64,000 nt of DNA from positions 4,135,001-4,199,000 of the forward strand of contig NZ_CP096040.1 in assembly GCF_023935105.1 (NCBI RefSeq), written 5' to 3'. A program made the position numbers and the translations under genes. This document shows, piece after piece, positions 4,987 through 61,723 of the stretch. Positions within the stretch are counted from its first letter, which is position 1. Each line of letters opens with the position of its first letter. The stretch comes from Caulobacter segnis. Its GTDB lineage: Bacteria; Pseudomonadota; Alphaproteobacteria; Caulobacterales; Caulobacteraceae. The notes under the pieces are model-generated. The model was not told where the DNA came from. It ran no database searches and worked only from the letters and a program-made list of their open reading frames with translations.

Positions 4987-6825
<1,839 letters not shown>

Positions 6826-47465: not shown

Positions 47466-49061
47466 TTAGCGCTCGGCGACCTGGCAGCTGAAGCTGGTCG
47501 CGACATCGGTGGAGCCCCTGCCATCCCATTGCGCCACCTTGGGATAGGCGCACAGGGGCCGGGTCCGCACCGTCTTGGCGGGCATGCCCAGCAGGTCGGC
47601 GTAGTCGTTGTCCAGCTTGGACGCGATCACCGTGTCGGGCGCCCGGCCACCCTCGACCCAGGCATCCAATGTCGCCAGCATGTCGAAGCTGTTGGGACCC
47701 GGACCGCCGAAGCAGTGCGACATGCCTGGGACCATGAACAGGCGCGAGAAGCTGTCGACCGACTTCACGCCCATCCTGGCGCGCACCGCGTCATAGTACT
47801 GGATCGTCGCCAGCGGCGTGATCGCCGCGTCGGACCAGCCGTGGAACAGGATCAGCTTGCCGCCCCGCGCCTTGAAGGCCGAGAGGTCGGGATTGTCCGA
47901 GGCCACGGTCGGTTCGATCGCCTTGGCGGCCTTGAGGTCCTTGTCGAGGTTCAGCTGGGTCAGCTGCCAGCGGGTGTTGGAATAGACAAAGTTGGCGAAG
48001 AACGAGCGCGCGAACGACGGGTGCTGGGCCTTGTCGCCGGTGATCCACAACGGCCAGGCGCCGGGCGTAGCCTCGCCGCCAGCCGGATAGCCGGGCAGGA
48101 TCGACCTGCCCCTGGCGTCACGCGGGCCCTGGTACAGCTTGCGCAGCCCCGCGACCTGAGCCGGGGTCAGGCATTCCTTGGTCTGCCCCTCCTTGCACTG
48201 AACGACGCCGGGGTCGAAGCGGCAGCGGCGCGGATCCTCGACCACGCCGTCGGCGACGCCGTCCAGCTGGTCGCACTGAGCTAGGGCCGCCTTCTGGACG
48301 ATGGCCAGGCTGGCGTCAGGGATGCGGCTTTCCGGGACCTCGTGCACGGCCTTCCACGACCAGGCGAAGCTGCCCATCAGCCGTGTCCAGGCGTTGGCCG
48401 GCGCGCCGGCCACGACGCCGTCGAAGTCGCCCGGATAGCGCTGGACCTCCATCAACGCCTCGCGGCCGCCGTCCGAGCAACCGGTAAAATAGGCGCGGCG
48501 CGGGCCCTTGCCATAGTGGGCGGCGATCAGGGCCTTGGCGAAGACGGCGGTCTCGTGGTTGGCGCGATGGCCCCAGTCGGCGATCTTCTCGGGCTGGTTC
48601 AGGGCCCAATCGGCCGAGCCGCCGGCCCCGTCCTCGGTATGGCCCATGTCGGTCCCGGCCACGGCATAGCCGGCCTTGACCGCCGGGCGCATGGCCAGGC
48701 GCGGCCCGCCGAGCGTGCCGCCGTAGCCGCCGTTGCCGGTGGCCATCAGCTTGCCGTTCCAGGCGGCCTCGGCCGGCAACCAGACCTCGACCCGGATCGA
48801 CGAGGCGGGGGTCGGCGACAGGGTGGCGTTGACCCGGCAATAGGCGGCCGCGGCGGGCAGAGGCGGTATGCCGAACACCTCGATCTCCTGCGGCGCGCCG
48901 ATCGCCATCGCCTTGACGGCGGTGATCCTGGCGCCGGCGATCTGGACCTTGGCCAGGTCGTCGCAGGGCGTGGCGGCGTGGGCCTGCCCCGCCAGGGCCA
49001 GAGCGCCCGTGAGGGCCAGGGGAGCGGCCAGATGAGCGGCCAAATGGACGGAACGCGTCAT
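47466..49061 (-). CDS. Tannase/feruloyl esterase family protein
   Basis: The 531-residue exported esterase has a signal peptide (MTRSVHLAAHLAAPLALTGA, cleavage after AHA) and the tannase nucleophile motif YFTGCSDGGREALMEV, in which Ser is flanked by a Cys. The partner Cys-His pair sits near the end in PGMSHCFGGPG, giving the disulfide-linked catalytic triad of the family. It releases gallic, ferulic or related phenolic acids from sugar or polyol esters in the periplasm or outside. It is cotranslated with the GPH symporter (4-bp overlap), which may import the freed sugar or phenolic glycoside. Confidence 0.93.
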   Translation of the reverse strand: MTRSVHLAAHLAAPLALTGALALAGQAHAATPCDDLAKVQIAGARITAVKAMAIGAPQEIEVFGIPPLPAAAAYCRVNATLSPTPASSIRVEVWLPAEAAWNGKLMATGNGGYGGTLGGPRLAMRPAVKAGYAVAGTDMGHTEDGAGGSADWALNQPEKIADWGHRANHETAVFAKALIAAHYGKGPRRAYFTGCSDGGREALMEVQRYPGDFDGVVAGAPANAWTRLMGSFAWSWKAVHEVPESRIPDASLAIVQKAALAQCDQLDGVADGVVEDPRRCRFDPGVVQCKEGQTKECLTPAQVAGLRKLYQGPRDARGRSILPGYPAGGEATPGAWPLWITGDKAQHPSFARSFFANFVYSNTRWQLTQLNLDKDLKAAKAIEPTVASDNPDLSAFKARGGKLILFHGWSDAAITPLATIQYYDAVRARMGVKSVDSFSRLFMVPGMSHCFGGPGPNSFDMLATLDAWVEGGRAPDTVIASKLDNDYADLLGMPAKTVRTRPLCAYPKVAQWDGRGSTDVATSFSCQVAER

Positions 49062-50557
49062 TGAATCACCGTTTCCTGGAGCGACAGCTTGGTGGGGGCG
49101 ACGGGCGCGTCGGCCGAGCGGGCGGCGATCTCGGCCACCATCCGTTCGTGCGAGGCGCGGGTGATGGGATAGAGGGCGATCAGCCCGGCCGAGACCAGGC
49201 CGCCGGCCAGCGGGATCCAGAACATCATCGCCTTGATGCCGGCCAAGGTCTCCGGAGTCTGGGCCGCGTTAGGCGCGTAACCGACGTGGGTCAGGGCGAT
49301 CCCCAGGAACCCAGCGCCCAGGCCCAGGGCCGCTTTCTGGCCCAGCACGACCAGGCCGAAGACCATCGACTCGGTGCGCACGCCCGTACGCCATTCGCCG
49401 TACTCGACGGTGTCGGGCAGCATGCCCCAGAAGCAGACCACGTAGGAGGCCAGGCCCATGGCCTGCAGCACCACGGCGGCGAACAGCAGCACCACGCCCT
49501 GGCCGTCGGCCAGATGCCACAGCACCAGGCCCGCCAGGCCCGGGACCGCGCCGATCAGCCAGGTCGCGCGCTTGCCCGCCAGGCGGACCACGACCGCGAA
49601 GGCCGGCACGCAGATCGCCGCCGTCAGGGCGCCGATGGCCAAGGCCACGCTGCCCAGTTTGGCGTCGCCGACCACATACTTGAAATAGTAGAGCAGGTTC
49701 TTGGAGAACATCGTGCCCGAGAAGGCGCTCAGCACCACCGCCCCCAGCACCAGCATCAGGGCGCGGTTGGCGGCCAGGCTGCGCAGCACGTCGCGCAGCG
49801 GGCGCGGCGGCGGGGCCTCGTCCTCGGCCACGTCCAGCCCGCGCGCGGCCCAGGCCACGGCCAGCAGGCAGAAGGCGGCGATAACGCCATAGACCGCGGC
49901 CAGGATCAGCCAGCCTCGGCGCGGCGCCTCGGGTGTCGAGAGGGCCTGGGCCACGGGCAGGGTCAGGGCGGCCACCGCGATGGCCGCCAGGGTCCCGAAC
50001 ACCATCCGCACACCGGCCATGTCGCCCCGCTGGGCGCTGTCGCGGGTGATGCGGGCGAACAGCGCCGCGTAGGGGATCGAGACCACCGCGTAGAGGGTGC
50101 GGAACAGCAGGTGGGCGATCGCGGCGAACACCACCGCCCCGGCGCCGGGCCAGACCGGTCCGGCGAACACCGACACGAACCCGAGCGCCAGCGGCGCTCC
50201 ACCCAAAAGCAAATAGGGCCGGTAGCGGCCCATCCGCGTGCGGGTCCGATCGACCACCACACCCAGCACCGGATCCAGCGCCGCGTCCCAGATCAGGGCC
50301 GCCATGTAGATGAAGCCGGCCGTCGCCGCCGGCAGGTCCAGCACGTCGGTATAGAAGAACAGCAGGTAGAGCCCGGCCGTCTGCCAATACAGGTTGAAGC
50401 CGAAATCGCCGATGCCGATGGCCGCCTTCCGGACAGCCGTCAGCCTGGGCGCATCGCCCCCCGCAACGCTTGGATTTCCCAACTCCGCCTCCCCGTTCGG
50501 GGCTGGACCAACCGGCGCGCCCCGTTTATTCACCACTTGTATAACGAAAATCACCAT
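49058..50557 (-). CDS. GPH-type MFS sugar symporter
   Basis: Residues show twelve membrane segments in the MelB/GPH pattern: AIGIGDFGFNLYWQTAGLYLL near the start, and the DAALDPVLGVVVDRTRTRMGR loop with the cation/sugar-site Asp residues. Such symporters import glycosides or glucuronides with H+ or Na+. The true start is uncertain (candidates at 50557 and just inside); an in-frame ATG at 50581 would overlap the divergent GH5 gene. The adjacent tannase, GH5 and GH78 genes make a plant glycoside the likely substrate. Confidence 0.88.
   Translation of the reverse strand: MVIFVIQVVNKRGAPVGPAPNGEAELGNPSVAGGDAPRLTAVRKAAIGIGDFGFNLYWQTAGLYLLFFYTDVLDLPAATAGFIYMAALIWDAALDPVLGVVVDRTRTRMGRYRPYLLLGGAPLALGFVSVFAGPVWPGAGAVVFAAIAHLLFRTLYAVVSIPYAALFARITRDSAQRGDMAGVRMVFGTLAAIAVAALTLPVAQALSTPEAPRRGWLILAAVYGVIAAFCLLAVAWAARGLDVAEDEAPPPRPLRDVLRSLAANRALMLVLGAVVLSAFSGTMFSKNLLYYFKYVVGDAKLGSVALAIGALTAAICVPAFAVVVRLAGKRATWLIGAVPGLAGLVLWHLADGQGVVLLFAAVVLQAMGLASYVVCFWGMLPDTVEYGEWRTGVRTESMVFGLVVLGQKAALGLGAGFLGIALTHVGYAPNAAQTPETLAGIKAMMFWIPLAGGLVSAGLIALYPITRASHERMVAEIAARSADAPVAPTKLSLQETVIQ
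50526..50544. promoter_or_regulatory. Degenerate copy of the TetR palindrome between symporter and GH5 genes
   Basis: TTATTCA (50526-50532) and TGTATAA (50538-50544) resemble the half-sites TTATGCA and TGCATAA found around the TetR gene at 56.5-57.3 kb, but with a 5-bp instead of 2-bp gap and one mismatch per half. The right half continues ACG as in the strong sites. It lies 31 bp before the GH5 ATG. Confidence 0.3.
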
Positions 50558-50574
50558 GCCTCCGGGGGAGTGGA

Positions 50575-52524
50575 ATGTCAAAGCCGTCGATCGATGTTCG
50601 TGGAAGCCGGTTCGTCGATGCGCACGGACGCCACGCGATCCTGCGCGGGGTCAATCTGGGCGGCGACTGCAAGGTCCCCTGGCCCGACGGCGGCACCGAT
50701 CGGCCCAGCGACTTTTCCGACCACCGCGTGGTCAGTTTCGTGGGCCGACCCTTCCCGCTGGAGGAGGCCGACGCGCATCTCGCCCGGATCGCCCGCTGGG
50801 GCTTCAACACCCTGCGCCTGCTGACCACCTGGGAGGCGGTCGAGCACGCAGGGCCGGGCCAGTACGACGAGGACTATCTCGACTATTTCGCCGCCGTCGT
50901 GGAACGCGCCCAGTCTCACGGCCTATTCGTCTTCGTCGACTTCCACCAGGATGTCTGGAGCCGGATGAGCGGCGGCGACGGCGCGCCCGGCTGGGTGTTC
51001 GAGGCCCTGGGTCTGGACTTCACCAAGTTCGACGCCGCCGACGCCGCGCACGTCATGCAGCACCGCTACGACTACGCCCGCGAGGAACGGCGCCAGGAAG
51101 ACCGCTATCCGATGATGAGCTGGGCCAGCAACTACCGGCTGGCGGCCAACGGCATTGCCTGGAGCGCCTTCTTCGCCGGCGAGATCCTGACCCCCGACTG
51201 GATCGTCGAGGGCCGCAACGTCCAACGCTTCCTGCAGGACCACTATCTGGGGGCCATGGCCGCCGTGGCCCGCCGGGTGGCGCACCTGGACAACGTCATC
51301 GGCTTCGACACCTTCAACGAGCCCGGCCTGGGCTGGGTCGGCCTGCCGATGAGCCAGCCGCGTCTGAAGGCCACGCCCGAGGATCCCTTGCCCGTCTGGC
51401 CCGGCCCAGCCTGGACGCCGCTGGACGGCCTGCGCGCCGCGCGCGGCCGCACCGTCGAGGTCGCCACCCTGGGCTGGAGCGACGAACGCGGCATGTTGCG
51501 CGTGCTGGGCCACGAGACGGCCAATACGGCGGGCGTCTCGATCTGGCGCGACGATGGCCCCGACCCCTTCGAACAAGCCGGCGCCTGGCGCTTCGATCCG
51601 GGCGGCGACCTAGTGCTGGACGAGGATTTCTTCCGCGGTCGCGACGGCCAGCCGATCGACCACGAGAACCAGTGCATGGGCCCGTTCTTCGCGCGGGTGG
51701 CCGAAACTGTCCGCGCCGTGCGGCCGGACTGGCTGCTGTTCGCCGAGCTGTGCCCCTATCTGATCGGCACCGGACGGATGTTCCCCGACGCCATGCCCGA
51801 GCGCAGCGTCAACGCCAGCCACTGGTACGACATCGACATCCTGCGCAAGAAGCGCTTCGACCCCGACCTGCCCCCCGACCCGCTGAAGGCCAAGTACTTC
51901 AACCAGATGGCCTATATCGCCTGGCTGGGGAGCAAGTTCGGCGACGACGGCGCGCCGACCCTGATCGGTGAATTCGGCATCCCCTACGACCTCAATCACG
52001 GCGAGGCGTTCGAGGCCTGGGCGCGGGGCGAACGCGGCGAAGGCGTCTGGACTGCCCACGCCCAGTCCCTTTCGCTGATGTACGACGCCCTGGACGCTCT
52101 GAAGCTGTCCTCGACCCAGTGGAACTACACCGCCAGCAACCGCAACGACCTGCGGATCGGCGACGGCTGGAACCAGGAGGACCTGTCGATCTTCTCGCCC
52201 GACCAGGTCGATGGCCCAGCGCCGAACGATCCCGACGCCGGGGCCCGCGCCCTGCTGGGCTTCTGCCGCCCCTACGCGCCGCTGACCCAGGGCGTCGTCA
52301 CGACGATGCGCTACGCCGACGAACGCTTCGAACTGGAACTGGAGGCCGATCCGACGATCGTCGCGCCGACCGAGATCTACGTCCCGGAGGCGCGCTTTCC
52401 GAACGGCGCGATCGTGCGCCTGTCTCAGGCCGCCGCCCGCTGGACCCACGATCGCGCCGCCCAGAAGGTGCTGGTCTGGGCCGCCGAGGCCGGGCCGCTG
52501 TCGGTCGTCATCGAGCCGGCCTGA
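50575..52524 (+). CDS. Glycoside hydrolase family 5 protein
   Basis: The 649-residue protein has the GH5 (beta/alpha)8 barrel: LRGVNLGGDCKVPW early, the acid/base Glu in GFDTFNEPGLGW (about residue 247) and the nucleophile Glu in TLIGEFGIPYD (about residue 466). A C-terminal beta-sandwich (about 560-649) follows. No signal peptide is seen, so it acts in the cytoplasm, unlike secreted cellulases; this fits cleavage of imported glycosides (glucoside, ceramide- or sterol-glucoside, or disaccharide glycosides). The start is supported by GGGGGAG upstream. It is divergent from the symporter gene. Confidence 0.88.
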   Translation: MSKPSIDVRGSRFVDAHGRHAILRGVNLGGDCKVPWPDGGTDRPSDFSDHRVVSFVGRPFPLEEADAHLARIARWGFNTLRLLTTWEAVEHAGPGQYDEDYLDYFAAVVERAQSHGLFVFVDFHQDVWSRMSGGDGAPGWVFEALGLDFTKFDAADAAHVMQHRYDYAREERRQEDRYPMMSWASNYRLAANGIAWSAFFAGEILTPDWIVEGRNVQRFLQDHYLGAMAAVARRVAHLDNVIGFDTFNEPGLGWVGLPMSQPRLKATPEDPLPVWPGPAWTPLDGLRAARGRTVEVATLGWSDERGMLRVLGHETANTAGVSIWRDDGPDPFEQAGAWRFDPGGDLVLDEDFFRGRDGQPIDHENQCMGPFFARVAETVRAVRPDWLLFAELCPYLIGTGRMFPDAMPERSVNASHWYDIDILRKKRFDPDLPPDPLKAKYFNQMAYIAWLGSKFGDDGAPTLIGEFGIPYDLNHGEAFEAWARGERGEGVWTAHAQSLSLMYDALDALKLSSTQWNYTASNRNDLRIGDGWNQEDLSIFSPDQVDGPAPNDPDAGARALLGFCRPYAPLTQGVVTTMRYADERFELELEADPTIVAPTEIYVPEARFPNGAIVRLSQAAARWTHDRAAQKVLVWAAEAGPLSVVIEPA

Positions 52525-52538
52525 GCGCAAGAAAAAGA

Positions 52539-52567
52539 GGCCGGAGAGCCTGCGCTCTCCGGCCTTT
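52539..52567. terminator. Bidirectional terminator between GH5 and the TonB receptor
   Basis: GGCCGGAGAGC (52539-52549) pairs with GCTCTCCGGCC (52554-52564) around CTGC. TTT follows on the plus strand and CTCTTTTTC on the minus strand, so it can end both convergent transcripts. Confidence 0.88.
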
Positions 52568-52655
52568 GGCAGCGTCGGGCGTTCGGGACAAGATCACACC
52601 CGTCGCATCGCGAAGGCCCGGCGCGGGAGAGCCGGCGCCGGACCTCGCGATCTGG

Positions 52656-54902
52656 TCAGTAGCGCAGGTTCAGGGTCACGCCGTAGCGCCGGAAGGCGTC
52701 GCCAGTCAGGACCTGGCTGTAGTCGCCCTTGCCGCCGAACGGGGTGGTGAACAGGGCGCTGGGGAAGCGTTTGTCGGTGAGGTTCTTGCCCCACACGGCC
52801 AGGCGCCAGCGGTCGTTCTCGGCGCCGATGCCGACCGTCCCGCCCAGGATGCCGTAGCTCTTGATCGCGGTGTTGGGATCGCCCGTGGCCGAGGCGTTGT
52901 AGCCGTCGCGCCAGCCGTAGTCGGCCGAGGCGTTGACCTGCAGGCCGTGGCCAATCGAGCGCTCGTAGACCGCCGCCAGGCTGGTCTTCCACTTCGACAC
53001 GCCGCTCAGCGCCTTGCCCGAGGCGTTGAAGCCGTACAGCCCCGGCGCGATCAGCACGCAGCCCGAGGGCGTCGTCACCGGGTCGCACGAGATCGGCGCG
53101 AAGGTCCCGTACTGGGCGTCGATATAGGCCGCCGAAGCGGTGACTAGCAGGCCCGGCGCCAGGACGGCCGTCAGGTCGCCCTCGATCCCCTTGGTCTTCA
53201 GCTCGCCGGCGTTGATCGTCCGGAAGGCCGGCGGGGTCAGGGTGAAGTCGACAGTCTGGGCCTGGTAGTCCTCGAACTTGGTCGAGAAGGCCGCCAGGTT
53301 CAGCATCGCCAGGCCGCCCAGCAGGGTGGTCTTGACGCCCAGCTCGTAGCTGGTCGGGATCTCGGGACCGACCGCCTGGCTGGTCGTGGCGTTGGAAACC
53401 CCCGTCTGGTTGAAGCCCGGCCCCTTGTAGCCGCGCGACACCGTCGCATAGCCCATGGTCCGCTGCGCCAGCTGGTACTGGACGCCGACCTTCCACGAAA
53501 AATTGGTGTGATTGGCGGTGTCGTCGAAGGTCACCGTCGGGTTGATCCCGAAGAAGCCCGGCCGGGTGAACTGGCGGAAGTCCAGGCTGACCTTGTCGCG
53601 GGTCAGGCGGGCGCCGCCGATCAGGGCCAGCTTGTCGGTCAGCTGGTAGCTGGCCTGGCCGAACACCGCGTAGCTCTCGGTGTCCACCAGGCTGTTGATC
53701 GTCGAGTTGATGATCGGAACAGGTGAAACGCCGAACGTGCCGGTCTGGTCGGTCACCTGGTTGGTCTTCTGGCGGTAGTAGTAGAGACCCGCCACGTACT
53801 CCAGCTTGCCGCCCGTCGGCGAGGCCAGGCGTAGCTCCTGGCTGACCTGGCGCAGGTCCTGGTTGGAGATGTTGTTGTTGAGGATATTGACCGGCAGACT
53901 GTCGGAGTCGCCGTTGCTGAAGTCGAAGTCACGCCGTCCGGCGCTGATCGAGGTCAGGGTCAGGCCGCCCGGTAGGCTCCAGTCGACCTGGGCCGAGAAG
54001 CCGTAGTTCTCGCGGTTCTTGTACTGGGCCCCGTCGATACAGAGGTCGGCGTTGTCGGGCGAGGCCTTCACCCCGCAGGCCGCCAGGGTCAGACCCATGA
54101 CGCCCGTCGGGTTCAGCTTGTACGGCGACCAGGTGATCGACTGATCCTGCTTGGCATAGTCGGCGGTGATCAGGACCTCGACCGTGTCCGAGGGCCGCCA
54201 CAGCAGCTTGGCCCGCGTTCCCCACTCGTCGTTGCCGTTGAACCGTCGGCCGTCCTTCTTGTTGGTCAGCACGCCGTCCAGCTCGTTGACGAACGCCCCG
54301 ACGCGCAGGGCGGCCTTGTCGCCCAGCGGCAGGTTCACCGTGACGTCGGACTTGTTGTAGCCGTCCTGGCCGGCGTTGATGTTGGTGATCGCCTCCAGGC
54401 GGCCGATCTTTGGCGCGTTGGTGGTGATGCTGACCAGACCCGCCGAGGCGTTCTTGCCGAACAGCATGCCTTGCGGCCCGCGCAGGATCTCGACCCGGGC
54501 CACGTCGTAGAAGCTGCCCAGCGCCATCTCGGGCCGGCCCAGCACCACGCCGTCCAGCACGGTCGACACCGTCGGCTCGATCGAGGTCGAGAAGGTCGAG
54601 GTGCCGACGCCGCGCACCGACACGCCGAATGAAGTGGCCTCGAAGCTGGGCACGACCAGTTTCAGCTGGTCGATGTTGCCGATGTTGCGCCGCTGCAGGT
54701 CGGCCTCGCCGACCACGCTGACCGCGACCGGCACCTCCTGCAGCTTCTCCTCGCGCTTCTGGGCGGTGACGACCACCTCGGTGATCATCATCGCCTCGCC
54801 AGCCTTGGTGTCCTGGGCCTTGGTCTCCTGCGCCAGGGCCTGTCCGGCCGACAGGGCGCCGATCGAGGCCCCCAGCGCCAATACCGTCTTCAACTGCTTC
54901 AT
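52656..54902 (-). CDS. TonB-dependent receptor of the glycoside locus
   Basis: The 748-residue outer-membrane receptor starts with a signal peptide (MKQLKTVLALGASIGALSAG, cleavage after ALA) preceded by an ideal AGGGAGGGG ribosome site. The plug domain (about 40-170, with MITEVVVTAQKREEKLQEVP as the TonB box/plug entry) and the barrel ending TLNLRY follow. It probably imports the plant glycoside or its breakdown product. The esterase lies 32 bp upstream in the same operon. Part of an in-frame upstream extension to 55250 overlaps that esterase and is not used. Confidence 0.94.
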   Translation of the reverse strand: MKQLKTVLALGASIGALSAGQALAQETKAQDTKAGEAMMITEVVVTAQKREEKLQEVPVAVSVVGEADLQRRNIGNIDQLKLVVPSFEATSFGVSVRGVGTSTFSTSIEPTVSTVLDGVVLGRPEMALGSFYDVARVEILRGPQGMLFGKNASAGLVSITTNAPKIGRLEAITNINAGQDGYNKSDVTVNLPLGDKAALRVGAFVNELDGVLTNKKDGRRFNGNDEWGTRAKLLWRPSDTVEVLITADYAKQDQSITWSPYKLNPTGVMGLTLAACGVKASPDNADLCIDGAQYKNRENYGFSAQVDWSLPGGLTLTSISAGRRDFDFSNGDSDSLPVNILNNNISNQDLRQVSQELRLASPTGGKLEYVAGLYYYRQKTNQVTDQTGTFGVSPVPIINSTINSLVDTESYAVFGQASYQLTDKLALIGGARLTRDKVSLDFRQFTRPGFFGINPTVTFDDTANHTNFSWKVGVQYQLAQRTMGYATVSRGYKGPGFNQTGVSNATTSQAVGPEIPTSYELGVKTTLLGGLAMLNLAAFSTKFEDYQAQTVDFTLTPPAFRTINAGELKTKGIEGDLTAVLAPGLLVTASAAYIDAQYGTFAPISCDPVTTPSGCVLIAPGLYGFNASGKALSGVSKWKTSLAAVYERSIGHGLQVNASADYGWRDGYNASATGDPNTAIKSYGILGGTVGIGAENDRWRLAVWGKNLTDKRFPSALFTTPFGGKGDYSQVLTGDAFRRYGVTLNLRY

Positions 54903-54934
54903 CGGATCCCCTCCCTTTGTTGTTGTTCGATATC

Positions 54935-56497
54935 TCAGCGCGCCTGGGCGTCCCGCAGGGCTCCCAGGGCGCGGATGCGGTCGGGCGTCGCCGCCAGGGC
55001 CGCGCCGTCGTTGGTCACGGTCATCCGCTGGTCGCTCGCCGGATCGTAGCGGGCCCAGCCCGGATCGCCGGTCCTGGCGAAGGCGGCCCAGGCGTCGGCC
55101 CAGCGCTTGGCCGCGGCCTGGTCGGCGGCGGTCGGCGCGTCCTTTAGCTTGCCCAGGGTGTCGAACGCGAAGCCCAGATCGCCGGAGTGCGGCGTTCCGC
55201 GCCAGTCCTTGCGCTTGGCCTCGAGCACATAGCCAAAGCTGTAGGTCCACACCGGCTGGCCGCCCTTGGCCGCCAGCCCGGCCAGGGCGTGGGCCGGCTC
55301 GACGAAGGTGGCGTCGCTGGGCAGGTCGTTGTTCAGCGCGCCCTTGCCTCCATAGATCGCCAGCAGCCGGTCCTCGGGCAGACCCAGCTGGGCGATGGTC
55401 TTGCCGGCGAACATGCCCTTCAGAAAGCCGGGGATGATGCCCAGCTCGTCGCTGTTGGCCCCGATCAGCAGCGGAACCTTAGCCTGGCGCCCGGCCGCGA
55501 AGCCCTCGACCGCCGAGCCCGTCACCAGGCGGCCGTCGACCACCGGGCCGGAGAAGGTCGCCTCCTCCATGTTCAGCAGGTCCAGCTTGCCCAGCAGCTT
55601 GGCGGCCGGCAGCGCGCGCAGATCGGCGGCCGTGGCGTTCTTCAGCCCGGCCTTGTCGGCGAAGGCGACGCCGATGGCCTCGGCCGAGACCTTGCCCGGC
55701 CGGTCGGCGGCCAGCAGGGGCCAGACGTCGCGGCCGCCGCCCGACTGGGCGATGGCCTGCTGGAACAGGCCGCGCGCCTGCGGGATCAGCATCAGCTGGG
55801 TCACCGAACCACCGCCGGCCGACTGGCCGAAGATCGTCACCCGGTTGGGGTCTCCGCCCAGCGCCGCGATATTGGCCTTCACCCAGGCCAACGCCGCGAT
55901 CTGGTCCATGTAGCCGTAATTGGCCTTGGGCTCGTCGGGATGCTCGGCGTCGAGGGCCGGATGGGCGAAGAAGCCGAAGCGGCCCAGGCGATAGTTGAAG
56001 GTCACCACCACGACGCCGCGCCGGGCCAGGGCCGCACCGTCGAACACCGACTGGCTGCCCGAGCCCATCACGTAGCCGCCGCCGTGGATCCAGACCATGA
56101 CCGGCGCGCGCTTGGCATCGGCGGGCGCCCAGACGTTCAGGGTCAGGCAGTCCTCGCTGACCGGCAGCTTGGTCTGGGTGTCGTCCCAGCCCACGCGGTT
56201 CTGCATGCAGTCGGGCCCGAAGACCTGGGCGTCGCGCACGCCGGTCCAGGGCTTGGCCGGTTGCGGCGGCCGCCAGCGCAGATCACCGACGGGCGCCTGC
56301 GCATAGGGCGCGCCCTTGAAGATCCGCACCCCGTCCTCGACATAGCCGCGCAGCGTCCCGCCGGTGACCGTCGCCTCGACCGGCGTCAGCGGCGCCGTCG
56401 ACGCGGCGGTCTGGCCCTGCGCGCGGCAAGCAGCCAGGCACAGGGCGGCGGCCACGACTGGCGAAAGACGTCTTGCGGTTCGGCTCAAATCGAGCAT
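54935..56497 (-). CDS. Type-B carboxylesterase lipoprotein
   Basis: The 520-residue protein has a lipobox LAAC (Cys24) and the type-B esterase elements: the oxyanion motif SEDCLTLNVWAPA, WIHGGGYVMGSGS, and the catalytic Ser in VTIFGQSAGGGSVTQL. A Glu and His of the triad are in the C-terminal half, the His in GTPHSGDLGFAF. It deacylates ester groups on glycosides on the cell surface or in the periplasm, before uptake by the receptor encoded next. The ATG at 56497 follows GGAAACGCCG and lies 44 bp after a TetR palindrome. Confidence 0.93.
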   Translation of the reverse strand: MLDLSRTARRLSPVVAAALCLAACRAQGQTAASTAPLTPVEATVTGGTLRGYVEDGVRIFKGAPYAQAPVGDLRWRPPQPAKPWTGVRDAQVFGPDCMQNRVGWDDTQTKLPVSEDCLTLNVWAPADAKRAPVMVWIHGGGYVMGSGSQSVFDGAALARRGVVVVTFNYRLGRFGFFAHPALDAEHPDEPKANYGYMDQIAALAWVKANIAALGGDPNRVTIFGQSAGGGSVTQLMLIPQARGLFQQAIAQSGGGRDVWPLLAADRPGKVSAEAIGVAFADKAGLKNATAADLRALPAAKLLGKLDLLNMEEATFSGPVVDGRLVTGSAVEGFAAGRQAKVPLLIGANSDELGIIPGFLKGMFAGKTIAQLGLPEDRLLAIYGGKGALNNDLPSDATFVEPAHALAGLAAKGGQPVWTYSFGYVLEAKRKDWRGTPHSGDLGFAFDTLGKLKDAPTAADQAAAKRWADAWAAFARTGDPGWARYDPASDQRMTVTNDGAALAATPDRIRALGALRDAQAR

Positions 56498-56540
56498 CGG
56501 CGTTTCCTTCAGGCTCTGTCGGCCCGTCCCAATGGTTACG

Positions 56541-56556
56541 TTATGCAGTTGCATAA
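56541..56556 (-). promoter_or_regulatory. TetR operator-like palindrome, left copy
   Basis: TTATGCA-GT-TGCATAA is a perfect 7-bp inverted repeat with a 2-bp spacer. It is 44 bp upstream of the esterase start. Read toward that gene, it is preceded by TTTCA and followed by CGT-A-A, exactly as the right copy at 57310-57325 is toward its gene. Confidence 0.7.
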
Positions 56557-56681
56557 TGAAATGTCGAGACTGATTCACCGATTGGTGAACCAATTTCCTT
56601 TCCGGCGCGACTGTTGCTAGTCTCACGCGCTTCGGCCCCGGCCTCTTCGACGAATCCGGCCTTTTCTAAAGGGATCCCCAT

Positions 56682-57293
56682 TTGAACCTCCGCGCGCGTC
56701 AGAAGGCCGCCACCCAGGCCAGCATCCTCCAGGCGGCCTTGGAGATCTTCTCCGAACAAGGATTCGAGGGGGCCTCGACGCGCGAGATCGCCGCCAAGGC
56801 CGGCGTCCATCACGCGCTGATCAAGTATCACTTCGACAACAAGGACGCCCTTTGGCGCTCGGCCGTGACCTTCCTGTTCCAGCGCCAGGCGCGGGAGCTG
56901 CAGCTGCCTGCTCCGGACGATCCGGCCTATCAGTCGTATCGCGACTTCGCCAAGGCGGTGATCCGCTCGGTGGTGCTGTACTCGGCTCGTCATCCTGAGC
57001 ACGCACGCCTGATGGTCCAGGAGAGCGTGCGCGACAGCGAGCGTTTCCGCTGGGCCGCCGAGGAATTCATCGTCGAGGCCCGCAAGGCCGCCGAGAGCTT
57101 CATCCTGCTGTGTCAGCGCGAGGGCATCCTGCCCAAGGTGTCGGTGGCGGCCAGCGTCTACATCTTCGTCGGCGCGGCCCAGCTGTTCTACACCCTGGCG
57201 CCCGAGGTGCGGCAGGTCTGGGGCCTGGATCCGTCCGACCCTGAGGTGATCGAGCAGCACGCCGAGGCGCTTTCGGCGATCCTGGTTCGCTGA
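56682..57293 (+). CDS. TetR family regulator of the glycoside locus
   Basis: The 203-residue protein has a TetR DNA-binding domain (residues 10-56: ILQAALEIFSEQGFEGASTR, then AAKAGVHHALIKYHFDNKDALW) and a ligand-binding helical domain. The start is a TTG at 56682 after AGGGATC, the only in-frame option before the conserved domain. Its gene lies between the two identical palindromes and is not itself preceded by a third, so the left copy may also influence it. A phenolic or sugar derivative would be the natural ligand. Confidence 0.92.
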   Translation: MNLRARQKAATQASILQAALEIFSEQGFEGASTREIAAKAGVHHALIKYHFDNKDALWRSAVTFLFQRQARELQLPAPDDPAYQSYRDFAKAVIRSVVLYSARHPEHARLMVQESVRDSERFRWAAEEFIVEARKAAESFILLCQREGILPKVSVAASVYIFVGAAQLFYTLAPEVRQVWGLDPSDPEVIEQHAEALSAILVR

Positions 57294-57309
57294 TCCCTCT
57301 CGACTTTCA

Positions 57310-57325
57310 TTATGCAGTTGCATAA
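57310..57325 (+). promoter_or_regulatory. TetR operator-like palindrome, right copy
   Basis: An identical TTATGCA-GT-TGCATAA lies 61 bp upstream of the small exported protein that begins the GH78 operon, immediately after the TetR stop. Its flanks match those of the left copy in opposite orientation. Confidence 0.7.
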
Positions 57326-57385
57326 CGTGAACGACGATAACCCACGCGGCCAGTAGCGGCGAAAGCGGCGGGAACGGGGAGTGTG

Positions 57386-57781
57386 ATGATGAAGCGTATG
57401 ATGACGCGCGTGCTGATGGCGGCCACCCTTTGCGCGGCGCCGTTGGGCATGGCCCAGGCCCAAGTCCAGGCCCAGCAGGCCGCGCCGGCCCAGCCCTACT
57501 ACACGCTGGACACCAAGATCGCCGACATCTTCGCCGATCCCAACGCCCGCGACGTCTTCGGCGCATTCTTCCGCAAGCGCGGCGAGGCGGCCGGCCAGCC
57601 CGAGGCCTCGCCCGAGGAACAGGCCAACATCGCCCAAGTGATCAAGAACTTCACCCCGCGCCAGCTGGCGACCTTCCCGCAAGCCAATCTCGACGAGGAA
57701 GGGCTGAAGACGCTGGGCGAGGCCCTGGCCAAGGTGCCGGCCCCGGCCGCGACGGCGACGCCCGCACCCGCCGCGAACTGA
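57386..57781 (+). CDS. Small exported protein preceding the GH78 rhamnosidase
   Basis: The 131-residue protein has a signal peptide (MMKRMMTRVLMAATLCAAPL, cleavage after AQA) and a mature part with AQPYYTLDTKIADIFADPNA, RDVFGAFFRKRGEAAG and a Pro/Ala-rich tail. I do not recognise it, but the compact helical middle looks like a folded domain. It starts after GGGGAG and the rhamnosidase follows 7 bp after its stop, so the two are expressed together. A role as accessory or binding protein for the rhamnosidase substrate is inference. Confidence 0.82.
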   Translation: MMKRMMTRVLMAATLCAAPLGMAQAQVQAQQAAPAQPYYTLDTKIADIFADPNARDVFGAFFRKRGEAAGQPEASPEEQANIAQVIKNFTPRQLATFPQANLDEEGLKTLGEALAKVPAPAATATPAPAAN

Positions 57782-57788
57782 TCCCGCC

Positions 57789-60700
57789 ATGACCGGTCCC
57801 ACCCGGCGTGACGCTCTTTCCGGAGCGGCGGCCCTGGCGGCGTGCCTGACGGCCGGCTCGGCCCGCGCGGCGACAGCCCTCACTGCGCCGGAACGGCTGA
57901 CCAGCGAGCACGCCGCCGGGCCGATCGGGCTGGAGGCGGCCCGTCCGCGCCTGGCCTGGACCCCGCCCGTCGCGCGGCAGAGCGCCTGGCGGGTGCAGGT
58001 CGCAGCCTCCGAGGCCGATCTGCTGGCCGGGCGCCTGACCTGGGACAGCGGCAAGGTCGCCGACGCAACGGCGGTCGAGGCCGTCTATGCCGGTCCTCCC
58101 CTGCCCGCACGCGCCCGGCGGGTCTGGCGCGTGCGGCTTTGGGACGGCGATGGCCGCCCCGGCGCCTGGAGCGCGCCGGCCGGCTTCGAGATGGGTTTGC
58201 TGGCGCCGCGGGACTGGGGCGAGGCCGCCTGGATCGGCCGCCACCTCGCGCCGCCGCGCGGCTGGGCCGATCTGACCCTGGCGGTCGACTTCACGCTGAA
58301 GGGCCGGTTCTTCGACGTCCTGTTCCGGGCCCGCCCCGAGGGCAAGACCTATGGCGAGGCCTACACCCTGCGGGTCGGCATGGTGGACGACGTCCCGTCC
58401 CTGATGTTGCAGGTCCGGCAATATCCCGGCGGCGCGAGCCCGCAGGTCAAGCTGAAGCGCCTGCAGGTCTGGCCGCTGGCGGCGGACCTGAAGGGCCAGC
58501 GTCGCAGGCTGACCATCGAGGCGCGCGGGACCGCGCTGCGCTTCAGCCTGGACGGCGTCCTGATCGGGGCGCTGGACGACGCCACGCAGGCCGAAGGCAC
58601 GATCGGCTTCCTGGCTCCCGAGGCCGAGGCCGCCGTCATCCACGCCGTGACGCTGCGGGCGCCCGATCGCCCCGGCTTCGAGAGCCGCTTCGAGGACGGC
58701 GACAATCCCCTGACCGGCGGCGACGTCGGCCAGGACGGCCTGTTCCTAGCCTCGGGCGTGCCCGGCAAGGACCTGGTCGTCCCCCTGGCCCATCCCGCGC
58801 CCCTGCTGCGCCGCGCCTTCGCGGTGAAGGGCGACATCGTTCGCGCCCGCCTCCATGTCGCCGCCGGCGGCTTCGCGACAGTCAGCCTAAACGGCGCGCC
58901 CGTCGGCCAGAGCGCCCTCGCTACGGGCTGGACAGCCTACGACAAGCGCGTGCTCTACCAGACCCACGACGTCACCGTCCTGCTGAAGGCCGGCGACAAC
59001 GTCCTGACCGCCGAGCTGGCGCGCGGCTGGTACGGGATCACCGAACCCAACGAGTGGTACTTCCACAAGGCCCCCTGGACCGCCGAGCCGGTGCTGAAGG
59101 CGCGGCTGGAAATCATCCTGGCCGATGGGTCGACCCAGGCGCTGACCACCGACGGCACCTGGCGCGCCGCCGACGGGCCCTGCCTGTGGGACTCGATCTA
59201 CGCCGGCGAACGCCGCGACGCCCGGCGCGAGCCCACGGGCTGGCGCGAGCCCGGCTTCGACGACCACGCCTGGGATGCGGCCGTCGTGGCCAAGGGTCCG
59301 GCGGGCCGCCTGGTCGCCGCCATCCACGAACCGATCGCGCCGGTCGCAAGGCATGCGGCGATCTCGGTCAAGGAAGTCCGCTCCGGCGTCTGGGTGTTCG
59401 ACTTCGGCCGCATCCGCACCGGCGTTCCCGAGCTGTCGGTCACCGGTACCGCCGGCCGCACCGTCTCGATGGTCCTGGCCGAGAAGCCGCGCAAGGACGG
59501 CGGGATCCAGGTCGCCAGCGGCCTGATCGACGCCCAGCTGATGACCTGGCGCTACACCCTGGCGGGCCGGGGCCGCGAGACCTGGCGCCCGGCCTTCGGC
59601 TATGGCGGCTTTCGCTACGTGCAGGTCACCGGCCTGGACGGGACGCCGTCCCTCGACACGATCACGGCGGTCGAGATCCACTCGAACGTCGCCAGGATCG
59701 GCCGGTTCGAGTGCGCCGACCCGTTGGTCAACACCATCCATGACGCCGCGCGCCAGGGCCTGCTGAACAATCTGCACGCGGCCCAGACCGACACGCCCAG
59801 CCTCGAGAAGAACGGCTGGACCGGCGACGCCCAGGCTTCGTCGGCCGCCGCCGCCGTGAACTTCGACGTCGTCCGCACCTGGGAGAAGTGGCTGGGCGAC
59901 TTCGTCGACGCCCAGGCGGCCAGCGGCGAGCTGCCCGAGATCGTCCCCTCGACGCCCTATTACGGGTTCGAGAACACACCGGGCTGGAACTACGTCTGGG
60001 GCCCCACCCCGGCCTGGGACGTCGCCGCCTTCGTCCTGCCCGAGGAACTGGCCCTGCGGTTCGGCGCGCGCGCCGCCGAGCCGGTCCGCGCCCTGCAAAG
60101 ACGCCTGGCCGATTACACCGCCCGGTTCCTGCAGGCGCCCGACTATCGCTACGATCACGGCCTCGGCGAATACGCCGCCGCCGGGCCGACCGGCCCGGTC
60201 GACGCGACCTCGACCGCCTATGTCTTCCACATGCTGAAGGCGACGGGCCAGGCCGCGCTGGCCGCCAAGGTCCGCGCCGCCTACAACGCCCGCTACTGGG
60301 ACGGGGCCGGTCGCCGCTATGTCGCTCCGCCCGAGGGCGGCAAGCCCGCGCCGTACTGCCAGACCATGAACGTGCTGCCCGTGGCCTTGGGCCTGGTTCC
60401 GGACGGCCAGGCGCAAGCGGTGATCGACGGCCTGGCCGCCGACATCGCCGCCAAGGGTCACAGGCTGGACGTCGGGGTCTACGCCCTGCGCTATCTGCCC
60501 CTGCTGCTCAGCGACCACGGCCACGGCGAGACGGCCTGGAAGGTCGTCACCCGCACCGACGAGCCCAGTTGGGGCTTCTGGCTGAAGAACGACATCCGCA
60601 GCATGCCCGAGGGCTGGGGCCTGGGCTCGCGGTCATGGAACCATCACTACTTCGCCTCGATCAGCAGCTGGTTCTACGAAGGCCTGGCGGGTCTTCGGCC

Positions 60701-61004
60701 AGCGGCGCCGGGCTATGCCCGCCTGCGCGTGCGGCCGGTCATGCCGAACGGTCTGGGAAGCGCCGGCGCTTCCCAGCGGACGCCGCGCGGCGAAGCCAGT
60801 TCGCGCTGGGTCCGACGGGCCGATGGCGGCGTCACGCTGACGGTCGGCGTCCCGGGGGCCTGCGAGGCGGAGATCTGGCTGCCGAACGGCGGACGCCGCC
60901 TGGCCCATCCGCCGCCGGGCGCCCTCTGGCGCGGCCCCCGCGACGGCCACGCCGTCTATCGCGTCGGCCCGGGATCCTGGACCTTCGAGATCGCGGCCTT
61001 GTGA
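57789..61004 (+). CDS. Alpha-L-rhamnosidase, glycoside hydrolase family 78
   Basis: The 1071-residue enzyme begins with a Tat-type signal (TRRDALSGAAALAACL), so it is exported folded. Visible domains follow the GH78 order: N-terminal beta domains (GLEAARPRLAWTP), the galactose-binding-like N-domain with RRAFAVKGDIVRARLHV, the (alpha/alpha)6 barrel with TDTPSLEKNGWTGDAQ, whose acidic residues are the catalytic and sugar-contacting ones, and a C-terminal beta-sandwich. It releases terminal L-rhamnose from flavonoid glycosides, saponins or pectin side chains. It is 7 bp behind the small exported protein. Confidence 0.95.
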   Translation: MTGPTRRDALSGAAALAACLTAGSARAATALTAPERLTSEHAAGPIGLEAARPRLAWTPPVARQSAWRVQVAASEADLLAGRLTWDSGKVADATAVEAVYAGPPLPARARRVWRVRLWDGDGRPGAWSAPAGFEMGLLAPRDWGEAAWIGRHLAPPRGWADLTLAVDFTLKGRFFDVLFRARPEGKTYGEAYTLRVGMVDDVPSLMLQVRQYPGGASPQVKLKRLQVWPLAADLKGQRRRLTIEARGTALRFSLDGVLIGALDDATQAEGTIGFLAPEAEAAVIHAVTLRAPDRPGFESRFEDGDNPLTGGDVGQDGLFLASGVPGKDLVVPLAHPAPLLRRAFAVKGDIVRARLHVAAGGFATVSLNGAPVGQSALATGWTAYDKRVLYQTHDVTVLLKAGDNVLTAELARGWYGITEPNEWYFHKAPWTAEPVLKARLEIILADGSTQALTTDGTWRAADGPCLWDSIYAGERRDARREPTGWREPGFDDHAWDAAVVAKGPAGRLVAAIHEPIAPVARHAAISVKEVRSGVWVFDFGRIRTGVPELSVTGTAGRTVSMVLAEKPRKDGGIQVASGLIDAQLMTWRYTLAGRGRETWRPAFGYGGFRYVQVTGLDGTPSLDTITAVEIHSNVARIGRFECADPLVNTIHDAARQGLLNNLHAAQTDTPSLEKNGWTGDAQASSAAAAVNFDVVRTWEKWLGDFVDAQAASGELPEIVPSTPYYGFENTPGWNYVWGPTPAWDVAAFVLPEELALRFGARAAEPVRALQRRLADYTARFLQAPDYRYDHGLGEYAAAGPTGPVDATSTAYVFHMLKATGQAALAAKVRAAYNARYWDGAGRRYVAPPEGGKPAPYCQTMNVLPVALGLVPDGQAQAVIDGLAADIAAKGHRLDVGVYALRYLPLLLSDHGHGETAWKVVTRTDEPSWGFWLKNDIRSMPEGWGLGSRSWNHHYFASISSWFYEGLAGLRPAAPGYARLRVRPVMPNGLGSAGASQRTPRGEASSRWVRRADGGVTLTVGVPGACEAEIWLPNGGRRLAHPPPGALWRGPRDGHAVYRVGPGSWTFEIAAL

Positions 61005-61324: not shown

Positions 61325-61723
61325 ATGGCCGAAGACAAGACCCCTGATCCCGTCGACATCCACGTGGGTCGCCGCCTGCGCATGCGCCGCAAGGATCTGG
61401 GCTATTCCCAACAAGCCCTGGCCGACGCCCTGGGCCTGACCTTTCAGCAGGTGCAGAAGTACGAGGGCGGCAGCAACCGCATCAGCGCCAGCAAGCTGCA
61501 CGCCACGGCCATGTTCCTGAAGACGCCGATCGGCTTCTTCTTCGAGGGCCTGGACGATCCGGAAGGCGAGGACTCCACCGCCGCCGACCTGGCCAACGAG
61601 ATGGCCGACTTCTGGTCGCTGCCCGGCGCCCCCGACCTGGCCCGCGCGTTCACGACCATCCAGTCGACCGGCATGCGCAAGCACCTGGTCGACCTGGCGC
61701 GCGCGGTGGCGGGCGAAGAATAG
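61325..61723 (+). CDS. XRE family transcriptional regulator
   Basis: The 132-residue protein has one helix-turn-helix of the XRE/Cro type (residues 15-70, with GYSQQALADALGLTFQQVQK and YEGGSNRISASKL) and an acidic C-terminal helix that may dimerise or bind a ligand. It resembles a family of small alphaproteobacterial regulators. It is monocistronic, so its targets are not known. Confidence 0.9.
   Translation: MAEDKTPDPVDIHVGRRLRMRRKDLGYSQQALADALGLTFQQVQKYEGGSNRISASKLHATAMFLKTPIGFFFEGLDDPEGEDSTAADLANEMADFWSLPGAPDLARAFTTIQSTGMRKHLVDLARAVAGEE

Follow-up and report, generated by a model that had tools for sequence, protein, structure and literature searches.

In Caulobacter segnis, a RutR-like protein of the TetR family very probably acts as repressor at three promoter regions in a glycoside locus with a TonB receptor, and a glycoside or a product of it would release the repressor. 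The window that we analyzed is a 64,000-nucleotide stretch of DNA holding the locus. The circuit appears larger than first claimed, with three predicted operators, perhaps four, all within the locus. Its genes and sites are as follows, in the order of their positions in the window.

47466..49061, reverse strand: tannase/feruloyl-esterase family hydrolase, overlapping the symporter stop.
49058..50482, reverse strand: GPH-family sugar symporter, probable TTG start at 50482.
50529..50544, no strand assigned: O3, putative operator, imperfect, TTCACCACTTGTATAA; a conserved island in 12/12 orthologous loci.
50575..52524, forward strand: GH5 beta-glucosidase-like enzyme, 649 aa, no export signal by eye.
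52656..54902, reverse strand: TonB-dependent receptor, 748 aa, 32 bp after the esterase.
54935..56497, reverse strand: carboxylesterase (PF00135), first gene of the O1 operon.
56541..56556, no strand assigned: O1, putative operator, TTATGCAGTTGCATAA; upstream site in 12/12 orthologous loci.
56563..56568, reverse strand: CTCGAC element upstream of O1, possible -35 region; in 20/20 O1/O2 sites of the 12 loci.
56574..56589, no strand assigned: O1b, probable auxiliary operator, TTCACCGATTGGTGAA; arms kept in the eight loci with the O1/O2 pair.
56682..57293, forward strand: TetR-family repressor, 203 aa, TTG start; nearest full-length solved relative RutR.
57310..57325, no strand assigned: O2, putative operator, TTATGCAGTTGCATAA; in 8/12 orthologous loci.
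57389..57781, forward strand: small secreted protein, 130 aa, first gene of the O2 operon.
57789..61004, forward strand: GH78 alpha-L-rhamnosidase, export signal by eye.

O1 and O2 are each a perfect 7-2-7 inverted repeat (TTATGCA-GT-TGCATAA), and the original prediction was correct both in placing these 16-mers at 56541 and 57310 and in calling them identical. O1 lies between divergent genes: the esterase ATG is 43 bp away and the TetR start 125 bp. O2 lies 16 bp past the TetR stop and 63 bp before the ATG at 57389 of the GH78 operon. With our choice of start codons the spacings are 43 and 63 bp, against the 44 and 61 bp first given. The window contains 20 perfect 7-2-7 palindromes, and the O1/O2 sequence alone occurs twice; a repeated 7-2-7 palindrome arose in one of 60 first-order Markov simulations of the window. 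At up to three mismatches, the window yields O1, O2 and one three-mismatch match (0.24 expected). A whole-genome search for the palindrome, which had been proposed as a check, found no wide scatter: TTATGCANNTGCATAA occurs exactly at O1 and O2 and nowhere else in the 5,687,505-base genome. Allowing two mismatches adds one further place, and a reversed control pattern likewise finds one.

Read toward the gene that each site faces, the flanks are ctcgacATTTCA-site-CGTAAC at O1 and ctcgacTTTCA-site-CGTGAA at O2, matching the TTTCA and CGT-A-A that had been described before and after each copy. These flanks are themselves partly dyad-symmetric (TTNCR on both sides), and CTCGAC, found on the upstream side alone (57299-57304 before O2), is their truly oriented part. 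A scan for consensus sigma-70 promoters from 50300 to 57600 found none, so it is the conserved flanks that would place O1 and O2 over promoters. A -35/-10 pair around the operator could be accommodated by CTCGAC and the second arm, which is AT-rich (GCATAAC).

We sought the TetR in 249 genomes of the family, 75 of the genus and 385 of the class, the window's own genome included. Where a genome had more candidates, the best 12 (family) or best 8 (class) were scored, and absence is meant at the E-value of the search. Orthologues occur at 12 loci with 67–100% identity (own included), nine of them in the genus and three in g3, a genus of the same family. Six homologues at 40–43% identity in genus g7 were left out of the orthologue counts. 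A site lies upstream of the TetR in 12/12 orthologous loci, so that by position O1 shows a trait of the TetR family, a palindrome upstream of the regulator's own gene, in every orthologue. Both O1 and O2 are found in 8/12 loci; O2 is absent from G221 and from all three g3 loci, and in G116 it has decayed (two mismatches). The central dinucleotide varies among the sites (AC, GA, AG, AA, GT, TC, TT, CC and CT). In 20/20 sites the first arm has TTAT and, as its sixth base, C; the second arm has TG and ATA; and CTCGAC lies upstream. A varying centre between fixed arms and flanks is the pattern of a binding site under selection, not of recent copying.

At up to one mismatch, TTATGCANNTGCATAA occurs in 32/249 family genomes. 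These comprise 10/10 carriers of the TetR (at least 67% identity) and 22/239 others (Fisher p 3e-10, which ignores kinship; counts across relatives are of events that are not independent). Sites, TetR and operon layout stay together in the relatives, which supports the operator pair originally proposed for this TetR. Because the arms and flanks are kept along with the sites and the TetR, we regard the operator reading as well supported by comparison.

A weight matrix built from the 20 O1/O2 sites and run over the window marked one more place, 50523-50550. This site, O3, lies between the divergent GH5 and GPH symporter genes, 6 kb from O1 and O2. In the alignment of the GH5-symporter intergenic region it reads TTATTCACCANNTGYATAACG in 9/9 genus loci and TTATTGTCCA or TTATTGTGCA, then NN and TGTATAACG, in 3/3 g3 loci, forming a conserved island amid otherwise divergent sequence in all 12. 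Its arms are unlike: TTATACA or TTATGCA is paired with TTCACCA in the genus and with TTGTCCA or TTGTGCA in g3, and only 4/7 positions are symmetric. O1, O2 and O3 of the window all fit TTNNNCANNTGNNNAA, which has the 7-2-7 layout. Across the 12 loci the O1–O3 sites fit it as well, apart from the O1 sites of the three g3 loci (one end base) and the O2 of G116. In the window TTNNNCANNTGNNNAA has four matches, namely O1, O2, O3 and one in coding sequence at 61443. In the 11 other orthologous loci (191 kb) it has 25, every one at O1, O2 or O3. Simulations gave 0.08 matches per 64 kb.

O1b, the fourth candidate, has two TTCACCA-like arms in nearly the 7-2-7 layout, and the distance between its centre and the O1 centre is 33 bp; its palindrome TTCACCGATTGGTGAA is overlapped by ATTGGTGAACCAAT. 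One base of the arms is changed in two of the eight loci with the O1/O2 pair, and O1b is absent in G221 and g3. Searched exactly, TTCACCNNNNGGTGAA has O1b as its sole place in the genome. O1b is probably an auxiliary operator, though we are less sure of it than of O3.

Outside the family, two loci with TetR homologues at 51–52% identity (L058 and L059) also have 7-2-7 sites immediately before TonB-receptor genes: TTAACCATTTGGTGAA and TTATCCAATAGTATAA in L058 (6405-6420 and 11118-11133) and TTCACCATCTGGTTAA in L059 (14000-14015). The arms of these sites are TTCACCA, TTAACCA or TTATCCA, the placement before a TonB-receptor gene holds in 2/2 loci, and the receptors are 31–35% identical to that of the window. 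L059 also has TTATCCAATTGGATAA at 5822-5837; the called start of a gene set (aldose epimerase, FGGY kinase, xylose-isomerase-like) lies there. The genus orthologues and the L058 and L059 homologues have the recognition-helix stretch HALIKYHF in common; g3 has NALIKYHF instead, and the stretch differs in the six homologues at about 40% identity. None of those six, all in genus g7, has a TTATGCA site, and one (L018) has CTATCCAATTGGATAG. Plasmid-borne matches to the TetR comprise 10 records, all below 60% identity and none an orthologue. The best, from Sphingobium TomTYG46 (37.8%), lies beside an annotated endo-1,4-beta-xylanase gene and near inositol genes.

The TTCACCA-type half-sites leave an unlikely, though still appreciable, chance that O3 and O1b belong to a different TetR paralogue and that this TetR targets O1 and O2 only. 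Three genomes of the genus that lack this TetR do have a perfect TTCACCANNTGGTGAA: G064 near a TonB-receptor-like start (L108:1501-1516), G142 beside a different TetR gene (L111:1501-1516), and G146 (C48:82431-82446). There it is perhaps the operator of another RutR-like TetR. However, the perfect TTCACCANNTGGTGAA is absent from the window's genome. One arm of O3 is TTATACA or TTATGCA in 9/9 genus loci, joined to the TTCACCA-like arm, which means that the O1/O2 half-site is present in O3 as well; the g3 loci have TTGTCCA or TTGTGCA as the other arm. Beside the 51–52% homologues, too, TTCACCA arms are found ahead of the TonB-receptor genes. We keep O3 among the putative operators of the window's TetR.

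The TetR has an N-terminal TetR_N helix-turn-helix (PF00440, 1.8e-14), and its structure model has a pLDDT of 91.9. Among solved structures matched over the full length, RutR comes first both by fold (4x1e; Z 19.0, rmsd 2.5, 193 aligned, 23% identity) and by profile (E 5e-19, full length). When the TetR sequence alone is searched, TM1030 (2id6) comes out ahead of RutR, with a match to the N-terminal half. Its scores fall below the cut-offs of the RutR equivalog model TIGR03613 (52.4 against 368 bits) and the RefZ model NF037937 (69.6 against 180 bits). Among the scanned neighbours of the TetR there are no pyrimidine-degradation genes; they are esterases, a TonB receptor, GH5, GH78, a symporter, a tannase and an HTH protein. 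RutR, the TetR-family repressor of pyrimidine utilisation in E. coli, has the operator consensus TTGACCANNTGGTCAA, in a 7-2-7 layout. If that consensus is right, the two regulators would share the layout as well as a palindromic operator of about 16 bp. RutR differs in its half-site and in controlling rut genes instead of glycoside genes.

In the scheme that we infer, from binding and repression to effector, substrate and pathway order, a TetR dimer would bind 7-2-7 repeats (TTNNNCANNTGNNNAA) in three intergenic regions of the locus that encodes it. O1 would cover the promoter of the esterase and TonB receptor, within the TetR's own upstream region, and O2 that of the small-protein/GH78 operon; O3 would act between the divergent GH5 and symporter-tannase genes. 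Bound TetR would block RNA polymerase until the glycoside or a breakdown product releases it. Uptake, periplasmic removal of rhamnose and acyl groups, import and cytoplasmic cleavage would then be switched on together. The analogy is with RutR: passages of PMC10891134 describe its binding to a palindrome of about 16 bp, and passages of PMC10891134 and PMC6245113 its release by uracil. On that basis, a TetR dimer on each site may block transcription until a small molecule of the pathway binds.

RutR also offers a precedent for another mode of action, since PMC6245113, in the part concerned, describes it as activating promoter P1 of carAB from a remote site. In the window, two putative operators flank the TetR gene and O1b lies close to O1, so the TetR might bind the sites but mainly activate, or loop O1 to O2 (centres 769 bp apart). 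We consider this improbable. O2 is missing in 4/12 loci, so an O1–O2 loop is not a conserved need, and the conserved CTCGAC puts the sites where a promoter would lie.

Under repression by the TetR, the genes of the locus would together form a pathway. The TonB receptor would serve outer-membrane uptake, the GH78 enzyme (export signal by eye) removal of rhamnose in the periplasm, and the two esterases (export signals by eye) removal of acyl groups. The GPH symporter would import the remaining glycoside, and the GH5 enzyme (no export signal by eye) would cleave the beta-glucoside in the cytoplasm. In the family scans the esterase sequence lacked its start codon, and the sequences of the receptor and symporter were extended upstream. 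The symporter ATG of several relatives is apparently lost in the window, and the TTG a few codons upstream probably serves. The small secreted protein has no Pfam or NCBIfam match; it lies between TetR and GH78 in 11/12 loci and was not found in G221. The intergenic region between GH5 and the symporter also contains CTGGAC (50503-50508, about 20 bp from O3), fully conserved in 12/12 loci. A strong terminator-like hairpin (52538-52565) lies between the convergent TonB-receptor and GH5 genes.

The best solved relatives of the GH5 enzyme are fungal sterylglucosidases (1e-73 and 6e-63). Both catalytic glutamates of retaining GH5 enzymes are present, and NEPG and GEFGIPYD align with the Sgl1 motifs. 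Fungal Sgl1 and SglA (PDB 7lpo and 8exd) are likewise GH5 enzymes with NEPG (NEPN in SglA) and GE-GIPYD-like motifs; the window's enzyme differs from them in being bacterial and in its 649 aa. The label endoglycoceramidase was rejected, with an NCBIfam score of 80 against a cut-off of 700 bits and sterylglucosidases as the best solved matches. The likeness to sterylglucosidases hints at rhamnosylated glycosides with bulky aglycones and, for the GH5 enzyme itself, points to a glucoside whose aglycone is bulky and hydrophobic. The substrates could also be rhamnosides of flavonoid, phenylethanoid or other acylated type. In a more ambitious version of the scheme, which we consider doubtful, the TetR would be specialised in sensing the bulky aglycone (a steroid, a triterpenoid or the like) of plant glycosides that bear rhamnose, and would govern a complete saponin-type uptake and deglycosylation locus. 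The half-sites TTATGCA, TTATACA and TTCACCA would then be mixed for promoter-specific strength, and related alphaproteobacterial TetRs would use the same CANNTG core with other half-sites at other TonB-receptor/sugar loci.

Local repression of a catabolic cluster by a TetR is, as a type of system, ordinary. CUT loci such as sux of Xanthomonas and Caulobacter relatives, in the part of PMC1790865 that describes them, similarly have a TonB receptor, an inner-membrane sugar transporter, hydrolases and a local regulator. The window holds that content (TonB receptor, inner-membrane sugar transporter, degrading enzyme and regulator); here, unlike in the sux locus as described in that part, the regulator is a TetR and the enzymes are GH78, a sterylglucosidase-type GH5 and two esterases. 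Saponin and glycoalkaloid deglycosylation genes, in the sections of PMC10653915 that treat them, include a GH78 alpha-rhamnosidase with further glycosidases, as here. Those sections name GH3, GH39, GH106 and others, and TetR, GH5 and TonB have 0 occurrences in the main text. Among the open-licence papers searched, we found none on the locus or the operator. The circuit proposed here gives this uncharacterised Caulobacter glycoside locus exact operator coordinates, O3 included, and the CANNTG core in a 7-2-7 layout offers a pattern for assigning operators to RutR-like TetRs in TonB-receptor sugar loci.

The original prediction also spoke of a small regulon and offered the 16-bp palindrome as a key to further members. 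The regulon does appear confined to its own locus, but O3 had been missed. Searching with the exact 16-mer casts too narrow a net, since the half-site of O3 differs, and the genome searches turned up no evidence of members elsewhere. The pattern TTMWVCANNTGBWKAA occurs exactly at five places in the genome, namely O1, O2, O3 and two in coding sequence (G000:C1:91218 and window 61443), the latter in two HTH genes that share a similar stretch. At one mismatch it occurs at 33 places (the five included) versus 29 for a reversed-pattern control. The pattern TTNWVCANNTGBWNAA, which misses O1b, the g3 O1 sites and the O2 of G116, has 28 matches in the locus and 14 elsewhere in 12 TetR carriers, and its reversed form has 20 off-locus matches in the carriers. 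In 12 hand-chosen non-carriers (nine of the genus, three of g3) it has 18. Members beyond the locus were therefore rejected: genome counts are close to controls, and off-locus matches in carriers do not exceed those in non-carriers, from which we take the regulon to be one locus. The TetR looks like a strictly local regulator.

Natural variants of the locus show how the upstream site behaves when its surroundings change. In g3 the TetR, small-protein and GH78 genes are consecutive without a second operator, so one upstream site could serve both directions. A search of the g3 loci for an orthologue of the window's TonB receptor gave no match at 1e-8. A different TonB receptor lies downstream (by Pfam in L049, by a like start sequence in the other two), with a related site, TTATGCAANCGCTCAA, in the intergenic region before it in 3/3 loci. 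An AMP-ligase gene adjoins GH78 in g3 (Pfam in L049), which would fit with an esterase setting free an acid. G221 has a glucokinase gene after the TetR, and the upstream site and O3 alone remain; the best GH78 of that genome is distant (36%) and lies about 12 kb from the TetR.

These variants bear on whether the palindromes are operators of a regulator encoded elsewhere (of LacI or MarR type, for example), with the TetR a bystander, to which we give a slim chance. The exact TTATGCAATTGCATAA adjoins LacI-family genes in G149 (L020) and G153 (L021), genomes without this TetR (Pfam identification in G149 only), so the same letters can serve another regulator elsewhere. Moreover, 12 of the 22 non-carriers with an exact or one-mismatch site belong to one genus, g15, G149 and G153 among them. 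However, within the window's genus a site at up to one mismatch is found in 7/7 TetR carriers versus 1/49 non-carriers. The upstream site follows the TetR even without O2 and a close GH78 orthologue, as in G221, and even with a different TonB receptor, as in g3; the 7-2-7 layout, too, fits a RutR-like TetR. Inverted repeats can form hairpins, but it is extremely improbable that the sites are RNA hairpins (attenuator or terminator) or a dispersed repeat, given that the genome has two exact copies only, no T run follows O1 or O2, neither is in the terminator-scan output, and both orientation and position are kept along with the TetR. In genus g15 (L066–L075), variants such as TTATGCANNTGCACAA turn up repeatedly; in L066, L070 and L074 they have the same gene pair next to them.
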